Assembly: GCA_016871675.1 (NCBI GenBank)
Contig: VHCN01000027.1
Coordinates: 1 to 39,396 of the forward strand
Length of the DNA: 39,396 bases
Source of the DNA: Verrucomicrobiota bacterium
GTDB taxonomy: Bacteria > Verrucomicrobiota > Verrucomicrobiia > Limisphaerales > VHCN01
Reading direction: 5' to 3'
Numbering within the stretch: the first letter of the stretch is position 1; each line of letters begins with the position of its first letter. Shown in pieces: positions 37,213 through 39,077 of the stretch. Under the pieces are notes generated by a model that saw nothing but the letters and a program-made list of their open reading frames with translations, was not told where the DNA came from and ran no database searches. The position numbers and the translations under genes are program-made.

Positions 37213-37241
37213 GTTATAGGTGGACACTTCGCGAAGTTCAA
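37213..37241 (-). promoter_or_regulatory. Predicted promoter of the ExbB/ExbD operon
   Basis: Reverse strand TTGAAC (37241-37236), 17-base spacer, TATAAC (37218-37213), then 6 bases to the ATG at 37206. The -35 box falls inside the left arm of the heptamer palindrome. Confidence 0.55.
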
Positions 37242-37330
37242 AGTTCAAAGTTCGAAGTTCCGCGCGATGCGCTCCCGGTGGCGTGGGAAACTCGGCAACT
37301 TGGAACTTGGCACTGGGAGCCTGGAACTCC
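37233..37330 (+). repeat. Inverted pair of heptamer arrays in a divergent promoter
   Basis: Left arm, four 7-base units: GAAGTTC, AAAGTTC, AAAGTTC, GAAGTTC (37233-37260). Right arm, five units: CAACTTG, GAACTTG, GCACTGG, GAGCCTG, GAACTCC (37296-37330). The right-arm units are approximate reverse complements of the left-arm units, in register, with a 35-base spacer, so a long imperfect hairpin or cruciform is possible. The arms supply the -35 boxes of the two divergent genes. Confidence 0.6.
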
Positions 37331-37341: not shown

Positions 37342-37722
37342 ATGGAACGACCCGACCAGCTTCGCGAACTGTTCCGCATGCAGCAGTCGCTCAACGAACG
37401 CATCGGCGTCCGCACCGACGGCATGAGCGAGGAGGAGAAGACCAAGTGGGTGCTCAACTACTGCCGCGCGATGTCCCAGGAGATGGCCGAGCTCACCGAC
37501 AGCGTCCCGTGGAAGTGGTGGGCGAAGTATCAGAAGTTCGACGAGCAGAACGCGCGCGTCGAGGTGGTGGACCTGTTCCACTTCCTCATCAGCCTCGCGC
37601 AAGTGCTGGGCATGAGCGCGGACGACGTCTTCGCCGCCTACTGCAAGAAGAACGAGGTGAACTTCAGGCGGCAGGACACCGGCTACGCGGTGAAGGACGA
37701 GCACGACTCGAAGCACATCTGA
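37342..37722 (+). CDS. Dimeric dUTPase-like (dUTPase_2/MazG-fold) protein
   Basis: A 126-residue all-alpha NTP pyrophosphatase-fold protein. The metal-binding acidic motifs are visible: Glu47-x-x-Glu50 in QEMAEL, and Glu74-x-x-Asp77 in ARVEVVDLFHFLISLAQVLG. The conserved aromatic stretch TDSVPWKWWAK and the C-terminal AAYCKKNEVNFRRQDTGY match dimeric dUTPases (PF08761), which hydrolyse dUTP to dUMP and so keep uracil out of DNA. It is followed by hpt after 23 bases, giving a nucleotide-metabolism pair. No trimeric Dut is seen in the window. Confidence 0.85.
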   Translation: MERPDQLRELFRMQQSLNERIGVRTDGMSEEEKTKWVLNYCRAMSQEMAELTDSVPWKWWAKYQKFDEQNARVEVVDLFHFLISLAQVLGMSADDVFAAYCKKNEVNFRRQDTGYAVKDEHDSKHI

Positions 37723-37745: not shown

Positions 37746-38330
37746 ATGGTCGCCAAACCCACGCCCCAGCCGACACTCCGCGTGCCGTTGCGTCTGCGCA
37801 AGGAAGTGCAGACCGTGCTCATCACACGCGCGCAGATTGCCCGGCGCGTGCGCGAACTGGCGCGCGGCATCCAGCGGGATTTTGCCGGCAAGGATCTCGT
37901 GGTTGTCTCCCTGCTCAACGGCACGGTGATGTTCCTCGCCGATCTTATCCGTCACCTCAACATGCCTCTGCGGCTCGATTTCATGGGCGTGTCCAGTTAT
38001 CGCGAGGGCACGCAGGCGCGCGAGCTGTTCTTCACCAAGGAACTGCGCCTCGAAGTGCGCGGGCGCGACGTGCTGCTTGTGGACGACATCCTCGACACGG
38101 GCAAGACGCTCTCGTGCGTGCTCGGCAAGCTGGCCGAACTCAAGCCCCGCGAGATCAAGACCTGCGTGCTGCTGGACAAGCCGTCGCGGCGCGAGCAGGA
38201 CGTTCAGGCGGACTACGTGGGCTTCGAGATTCCCGACATGTTCGTCGTCGGCTACGGGCTGGACTACGCGGAGCGGTATCGGAACCTGCCATTCGTCGGC
38301 GTGCTCAGGCCGGAGACGTATCGGACGTGA
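37746..38330 (+). CDS. hpt: Hypoxanthine phosphoribosyltransferase
   Basis: A 194-residue type I phosphoribosyltransferase for purine salvage: hypoxanthine (and often guanine) + PRPP to IMP (GMP) + PPi. The PRPP-binding loop LVDDILDTGKTL lies near residues 111-122. The flexible-loop SSYREGTQ and the purine-binding C-terminal segment (DYVGFEIPDMFVVGYGLDYAERYRNLPFVGVL) are characteristic of HPRT. The first 18 residues (to RLRKEV) are a variable extension. It is 23 bases downstream of the dUTPase gene and probably shares its promoter. Confidence 0.95.
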   Translation: MVAKPTPQPTLRVPLRLRKEVQTVLITRAQIARRVRELARGIQRDFAGKDLVVVSLLNGTVMFLADLIRHLNMPLRLDFMGVSSYREGTQARELFFTKELRLEVRGRDVLLVDDILDTGKTLSCVLGKLAELKPREIKTCVLLDKPSRREQDVQADYVGFEIPDMFVVGYGLDYAERYRNLPFVGVLRPETYRT

Positions 38331-38331
38331 G

Positions 38332-38401
38332 GCGCAGGGCGCAATGCGTAAAACGTAACCTGAGCCGACCGCACTTACGTTTTACGAGTTACGCATTACG
38401 T
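38332..38401 (+). repeat. Inverted pair of heptamer arrays between hpt and moaD
   Basis: Left arm: GCGCAGG, GCGCAAT, GCGTAAA, ACGTAAC (38332-38359). Spacer of 14 bases. Right arm: CTTACGT, TTTACGA, GTTACGC, ATTACGT (38374-38401). The right arm read in reverse complement is ACGTAAT, GCGTAAC, TCGTAAA, ACGTAAG; unit by unit it matches the left arm at about 20 of 28 positions, best near the loop. The strict 7-base period is the same as at 37233-37330. It ends 7 bases before the moaD GTG and may carry its -10 (TACGTT, 38397-38402). Confidence 0.6.
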
Positions 38402-38408
38402 TTCCACT

Positions 38409-38654
38409 GTGACCATCCGGATACAATTCTACTCCTACTTCGCCGACCTGACCGGCTGCGGGCAGGCGGGTGAGGAGTTGCAGGCGGGTGCGACTCTCGG
38501 CGACCTGATGCTTCGCCTGCACGCGCGCTTCCCGAAGCTCGCCGCGATGGACAAGTCCACGCTCATTGCCGTCGGCGTCGAGTATCAGCCGCGCAGTTAC
38601 GAGCTGAAGGACGGCGACGTGGTGAGCCTGTTCCCGCCGGTGCAGGGCGGATGA
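38409..38654 (+). CDS. moaD: Molybdopterin synthase sulfur-carrier subunit MoaD
   Basis: An 81-residue ubiquitin-like protein ending in Gly-Gly (SLFPPVQGG), whose C-terminal Gly is thiocarboxylated and donates sulfur to precursor Z for molybdopterin. The core (RIQFYSYFADLTG, then LKDGDVVSLFPPVQGG) is canonical. Start is GTG at 38409, 7 bases after the heptamer palindrome. MoaE follows after 21 bases; the two make up molybdopterin synthase. No other moa, mog or moe gene is in the window. Confidence 0.94.
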   Translation: MTIRIQFYSYFADLTGCGQAGEELQAGATLGDLMLRLHARFPKLAAMDKSTLIAVGVEYQPRSYELKDGDVVSLFPPVQGG

Positions 38655-38675: not shown

Positions 38676-39077
38676 ATGGCCGGTTTCATGAAGCGCGAGC
38701 TGAACATCACCAGCGACCCGGTTGATGAGGCGGCACTCGTCGCGCGGCGGCGCCTGGGCGCGGGCCTGGGCGCGGCGGTGTGTTTCACCGGCGTCGTGCG
38801 CGGCGACGAGGAGGGGCAGCGCATCTCCGCCATCGAATACACGGCGTTCCAGCAGATGGCGGAGCACCAGTTCCACAAGCTCTTCGACGAGATGGCCGCG
38901 CGCTGGCCGGTCGAGAGCGTGCGCCTCGTTCACCGGCTCGGCGTGGTGAAGGTCGGCGAACCGTCGCTTTGGGTCGAGGTGGTCGCGCCGCACCGGGGCG
39001 AGGCATTCGCCGCGTGCCAGTGGTTGATCGATGAGATGAAGCGCGTGGTTCCCATCTGGAAGCAGCCGCTGCCGTAG
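38676..39077 (+). CDS. moaE: Molybdopterin synthase catalytic subunit MoaE
   Basis: A 133-residue catalytic subunit that inserts two sulfurs from MoaD into cyclic pyranopterin monophosphate. Family motifs are seen: GAAVCFTGVVRGDEEG, IEYTAFQQMAEHQF, VHRLGVVKVGEPSLWVEVVAPHRGEAFAACQW and the C-terminal KRVVPIWK with active-site Lys residues. The ATG at 38676 gives a 4-residue extension before an alternative ATG at 38688 (MKRELN). Together with SelB elsewhere in the window, a molybdenum cofactor enzyme with selenocysteine (formate dehydrogenase type) is possible in this organism, but none is visible. Confidence 0.95.
   Translation: MAGFMKRELNITSDPVDEAALVARRRLGAGLGAAVCFTGVVRGDEEGQRISAIEYTAFQQMAEHQFHKLFDEMAARWPVESVRLVHRLGVVKVGEPSLWVEVVAPHRGEAFAACQWLIDEMKRVVPIWKQPLP

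Follow-up and report, generated by a model that had tools for sequence, protein, structure and literature searches.

The window, by which we mean the whole stretch of DNA analyzed (39,396 nucleotides of contig VHCN01000027.1 from a Verrucomicrobiota bacterium), carries towards its end a gene for a hypoxanthine-type phosphoribosyltransferase (hpt), followed by genes for MoaD/ThiS-like and MoaE-like proteins. Between hpt and moaD lies an array of 7-base units, which begins at the very next base after the hpt stop codon (38328–38330). A second array, built on another word, occupies about 37233–37330, at the divergent junction between exbB and the gene that starts at 37344 (Table 1). The latter gene (37344–37721), upstream of hpt, is conserved and adjoins exbB in many relatives; its 126-residue product has no match in Pfam.

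Table 1. Arrays and genes in the right-hand part of the window.
Feature	Positions	Strand	Basis or remark
Neighboring array, left arm, unit AAAGTTC	37233..37260	+	sequence and array scan
Neighboring array, right arm, AACTTGG units	37297..37328	-	divergent exbB / 37344 gene junction
Phosphoribosyltransferase (hypoxanthine type) gene, upstream of array	37746..38330	+	Pfam PF00156, E 1.7e-30
Window array, left arm, four units GGCGCAG GGCGCAA TGCGTAA AACGTAA	38331..38358	+	read directly; cores face loop
Window array, loop CCTGAGCCGACCGCAC, 16 bases	38359..38374	.	read directly
Window array, right arm, TTACGTT TTACGAG TTACGCA TTACGTT	38375..38402	-	same units recur in other phyla
MoaD/ThiS-like gene, downstream of array	38409..38654	+	Pfam PF02597, E 5.4e-12
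MoaE-like gene	38676..39077	+	Pfam PF02391, E 1.5e-33

The window array has the core CGTAA (unit CGTAANN). Read on the other strand, its right arm is AACGTAA TGCGTAA CTCGTAA AACGTAA, and the outermost two left units (GGCGCA) are decayed from the same core. A preliminary description placed four units opposite four across 14 bases; the layout of the units stands, but the loop spans 16. The same description counted about 20 mirror matches in 28 positions. The number is exactly 20 of 28, and 1.18 Mb of simulated first-order Markov sequence held no equal of the array. Period-7 matches amount to 16/21 and 15/21, and 18 of 19 bases agree between the arms if one left unit is allowed to be absent. In a scan for period-7 inverted arrays over 1.24 Mb of the own genome the window array scores 39.4 and the neighboring array, which is also real, 42.5; 12-mers from the loop of the latter occur elsewhere, as expected in G+C-rich DNA. 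Under a strict pattern, the window array, its left half decayed, is a single copy in its own genome.

Period 7 prevails in this genome. In the same 1.24 Mb sample, inverted arrays of period 7 at a cut-off of 38 number 15, versus none in the Markov control; period 6 yields 11 (9 of them inside predicted genes), periods 8 and 9 yield 2 and 3, and periods 10, 11, and 13 yield none at that cut-off. Among direct arrays in about 110 kb of own-genome intergenic DNA, whose limits rest on a home-made gene caller and are approximate, 31 are of period 7 versus 1.6 expected, compared with 11 of period 6, 6 of period 8, and 7 of period 5, such that the earlier expectation of a period-7 signal stronger than those of periods 6 and 8 is borne out. 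Relatives show the same excess (12 versus 0.2 expected). It was also correct that two unrelated words, CGTAA and AAAGTTC, share one architecture here; about ten such unrelated words exist in the genome. Unit sequences group into families, each with a core beside positions that vary (AAGTT, GGCAA, ACTGA, GCGTG, CGTAA, GCGGA, and others among 59 arrays), and CGTAA recurs across phyla.

Orientation, counted for several words, is almost always inward. TCAGTNN arrays gave 103 inward and 0 outward matches in 146 genomes of the window's order. For CGTAA the figures were 498 inward versus 28 outward in 10 genomes, a ratio to which a single array may contribute several nested matches and which is biased to some degree, the ten genomes having been picked for holding inward arrays; the TCAGT test is free of such bias. 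In viral contigs, TCAGT arrays face inward in at least 120 stretches versus 8 outward, and GCGTG arrays in 2 versus 0. AAAGTTC is mixed (5 versus 4 loci), which led us to drop the idea of one orientation rule for all words; a simple purine or G-skew rule does not fit all words either. The outer edge of TCAGT arrays is fixed in phase, with 44 of 92 bacterial edges starting exactly at AGT, preceded by purines. An interpretation of the edges GAAGT, AAAGT, and AGAGT as a stop codon plus AGT was discarded by eye, the preceding base being mostly not T.

Within the units, conservation is confined to the core. In interior units not selected by the search pattern (41 bacterial and 119 viral), CAGT is 93–99% conserved while the two free positions are near random, at 1.4–1.9 bits of entropy; the arrays were found by core-containing patterns, so neighboring units are unselected whereas the arrays themselves are selected. 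The same contrast, albeit weaker, is seen in 79 CGTAA units. Between arms, a changed core is matched by the same change in 1 of 39 unit pairs, and agreement of free bases does not exceed permutation: 67 observed versus 72.7 for CGTAA, and 16 versus 18.4 (bacterial) and 64 versus 70.7 (viral) for TCAGT, with units compared by index so that gains and losses of units blur the comparison. Spacer identity between arms is not significantly above permutation in any set, and arm lengths correlate weakly (rho 0.32 and 0.25). The preliminary description had proposed a mechanism generating heptamer hairpins and had made co-variation of the arms its criterion. Taken as arms copied from each other, that mechanism is not supported and fails by the criterion, as spacers are not mirrored unit by unit, core changes are almost never matched, and arm lengths correlate weakly; copying was rejected whether the alignment was fixed at the loop or at the outer edge. 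In the window-order and viral sets, loops have nothing in common but repeat units. With arms that do not mirror each other, core changes hardly ever compensated, and loops for the most part unrelated, neither pairing nor inverted copying is what is maintained. What persists in each unit is its core, together with the inward direction.

Convergent heptamer arrays are a large, little-described class in many bacterial phyla and some phages. Other genomes contribute at least 112 stretches with inward CGTAA arrays, mostly from Anaerolineae (Chloroflexota), and further hosts among the matches listed include Deltaproteobacteria, Planctomycetota, Poribacteria, Calditrichaceae, and Methylomirabilota. 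A 16-mer of the window, AATGCGTAAAACGTAA, has exact copies at no fewer than 23 fetched loci, a figure that includes some overlapping stretches of one genome. In one Chloroflexota genome (G147), dispersed copies measure 36, 43, 50, and 57 bp, exact steps of 7. In JALXCB01 (L152, L153, L164, L172, L177, and L178), a dispersed repeat has conserved flanks round a CGTAA array and length differences of whole 7-base units. A second dispersed Anaerolineae repeat round CGTAA arrays (L134, L141, L201, L150, and L208) has similar loops, of the GGTCTCTCTGG type, and matching flanks.

Among viral arrays with both neighbors called, 113 of 153 lie between co-directional genes, and over all fetched viral loci, with simple longest-ORF gene calls, the median distance from the upstream stop to the start of the array is 2 bp. 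The phage IMGVR_UViG_3300025409_000011 (L457, L416, and L459) encodes a terminase, a portal, a head protease, and a major head protein. Within 14 kb of it, inward TCAGT arrays occupy 8 of some 13 gene junctions, and another 11.6 kb holds 5 more; the free bases and loops of these arrays all differ.

In relatives from other families, arrays also recur at the same gene junction with another word. The hpt-moaD junction of one such relative (G009) holds an array of GGTGCGT, and that of ccsA-hemA in G051 an array of ATTGGCT. The divergent exbB junction carries AAAGTTC in the window, ACGTAAA in G037, and AAAGTTC in G025; the urtD-urtE junction carries TAGTAAT in the own genome, CAGTAAT in G044, and an 8-base word in G053. 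Period-7 arrays were present at 5 of about 85 orthologous junctions versus 5 of 672 genes in random stretches (Fisher p 0.0025), a comparison that took in only period-7 matches above the cut-off, with a denominator counted by eye, own-genome junctions chosen because they bear arrays, and 2 of the 5 background matches sitting at these very junctions.

Because the core and inward orientation are kept, and not the pairing of arms, we infer a sequence-specific factor that recognizes the units. The interpretation we prefer, to which we would give a probability of a little under two in five, is that the arrays are 7-base recognition sites in convergent order, read by such a putative factor in the manner of omega/ParB heptads. 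The gene-junction element would then be two runs of sites, head to head round an arbitrary loop and directly behind a stop codon, each site having a conserved core of 4–5 bases and two free bases, with unit number shifting by whole 7-base steps, as is seen between dispersed copies of one genome. Most simply, the reader may be a small dimeric DNA-binding protein seated on each heptad, as omega/ParB is, and any benefit of its binding would be equally putative. Against a reading factor count the ten or so words per genome, which would require ten factors or one of loose specificity, as well as the mixed orientation of AAAGTTC and the single, half-decayed copy in the window. The phage described above offers a small system where a reader of the repeats, if any, should be findable. 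A broader proposition, somewhat unlikely in our estimate, is that convergent heptad arrays make up one general class of gene-junction element, spanning phyla and also carried by phages. Such elements would draw on a dictionary of cores, sit right behind stop codons, and be read by a putative set of factors, and in the course of evolution one word would replace another at a given junction.

Alternatively, the arrays may be what is left of small mobile elements of the palindromic REP or MITE-like kind, which moved in trans and had the heptamer arms as their ends, with slippage altering arm length. An element with ends would fit the constant orientation and outer edge, arrays occur in phages, and loops and flanks are common to copies in two Chloroflexota genomes; mobile descent does explain some of these copies. 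In genomes of the window's order, however, flanks are unrelated as well as loops, in line with the preliminary view that the arrays are not simple duplicates of a single mobile repeat, and many words coexist. Direct words flanking the arrays show no excess over mismatched pairs (3.6 versus 3.4 and 3.1 versus 3.1 for related CGTAA and TCAGT arrays, with fuzzy boundaries), hence no sign of target duplication. Nor does the own genome (G000) have a match to the Y1 transposase (PF01797; RAYT), present in 49 of 58 searched genomes. Neither of the REP/BIME tags, GTAG and CGTC, is found on either strand of 38331–38402. Taken as a general account, mobile descent is unlikely.

Still less probable is a neutral by-product of replication, in which slipped-strand mispairing favors 7-base steps and template switching yields inverted partners. 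In favor of this view, no other long simple repeat is as common as the heptanucleotide in most bacterial genomes, and a 7-nt polymerase footprint has been proposed (both Mrazek 2007, as cited in PMC4679880); array length indeed changes by whole units, and slippage explains these changes. Template switching, however, would carry variants into the other arm, which is not seen, and would give both orientations, which the TCAGT ratio of 103:0 belies; slippage would not free two positions while keeping a core. Neither mobile descent nor slippage accounts at once for orientation, free positions, and unrelated loops. Least probable of all is an RNA hairpin serving transcription attenuation, 3' end protection, or processing in operons: the arms can pair, arrays lie right behind stop codons between co-directional genes, and they recur at the same junctions, but pairing is not preserved at free positions or changed cores, single-strand DNA folding of the window array is only mildly better than that of shuffles (z -2.1 and -2.0), the stem, unlike that of an intrinsic terminator, has no T-run behind it (the 3' end reads TTACGTTTCCACTGTG), Rfam has no match above gathering score for the array, and the own-genome intergenic count shows no enrichment between convergent genes.

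Several precedents exist. While the preliminary description held that heptanucleotide repeats were known as direct arrays only, convergent pairs in Xanthomonas (PMC4692102) and a hairpin in trnL introns (PMC3488679) show otherwise. Xanthomonas genomes each hold 70–75 convergent pairs of GGGAATC heptamers (Rehm et al. 2015, PMC4692102). As there, the window array consists of two intergenic runs of 7-base units in tandem, both pointing inward; fixed and free positions and a location nearer the upstream gene are further likenesses (PMC4692102). The Xanthomonas word, however, is single, G-rich, and quadruplex-forming, whereas the present arrays use some ten words per genome, none of which needs G-runs, and extend to other phyla and phages with a fixed outer edge; quadruplex-capable G-runs (GGGANTN) are absent from the units GGCGCAG, GGCGCAA, TGCGTAA, AACGTAA, and CTCGTAA. 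Omega/ParB of pSM19035 is a small RHH dimer that reads WATCACW heptads arranged either directly or convergently (PMC9499535). These too are contiguous, non-palindromic 7-bp sites with a conserved core (5-base in pSM19035), a likeness of layout alone (PMC9499535); the core here is CGTAA, not WATCACW, and the sites are spread over gene junctions. TAACTGA arrays, known from Beggiatoaceae, cyanobacteria, and Bacteroidetes (PMC4679880), are likewise intergenic 7-base repeats common to distant phyla, but are almost all direct (169 sets versus one 'indirect') and lie before start codons (PMC4679880). In cyanobacterial trnL introns, degenerate heptanucleotide repeats in the P6b stem fold into a hairpin; their arms face each other and length varies by repeat copies, as here, although they form one site in a self-splicing intron, paired in the transcript (PMC3488679). 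Convergent heptamer pairs, heptamers across phyla, and a heptanucleotide hairpin are therefore already known. The literature searched did not contain a multi-word dictionary, a counted orientation rule, a lack of compensation, recurrence at junctions, or the phage.

The counts reported here bring scattered reports of heptamers in cyanobacteria, Xanthomonas, and Beggiatoaceae under testable rules: units point inward and keep a core beside two free bases, and the array has a fixed outer edge and lies right behind a stop codon. They also bear on the old question of why 7-base repeats prevail in bacteria, as pure slippage explains neither orientation nor core. Other periods and words deserve mention. 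Inverted arrays of period 8 and 9, of the types GACGCGGG, ACACGAAGG, and CTCTGTGC, occur in the same genomes with what is seemingly the same architecture (L005:19875, L026:17490, L005:1536, L129:10620, L093:11619, and L320). Reversed control patterns (for instance, CTTGAAACTTGAAA) match G084 and other genomes, a hint at more words such as TTGAAAC.
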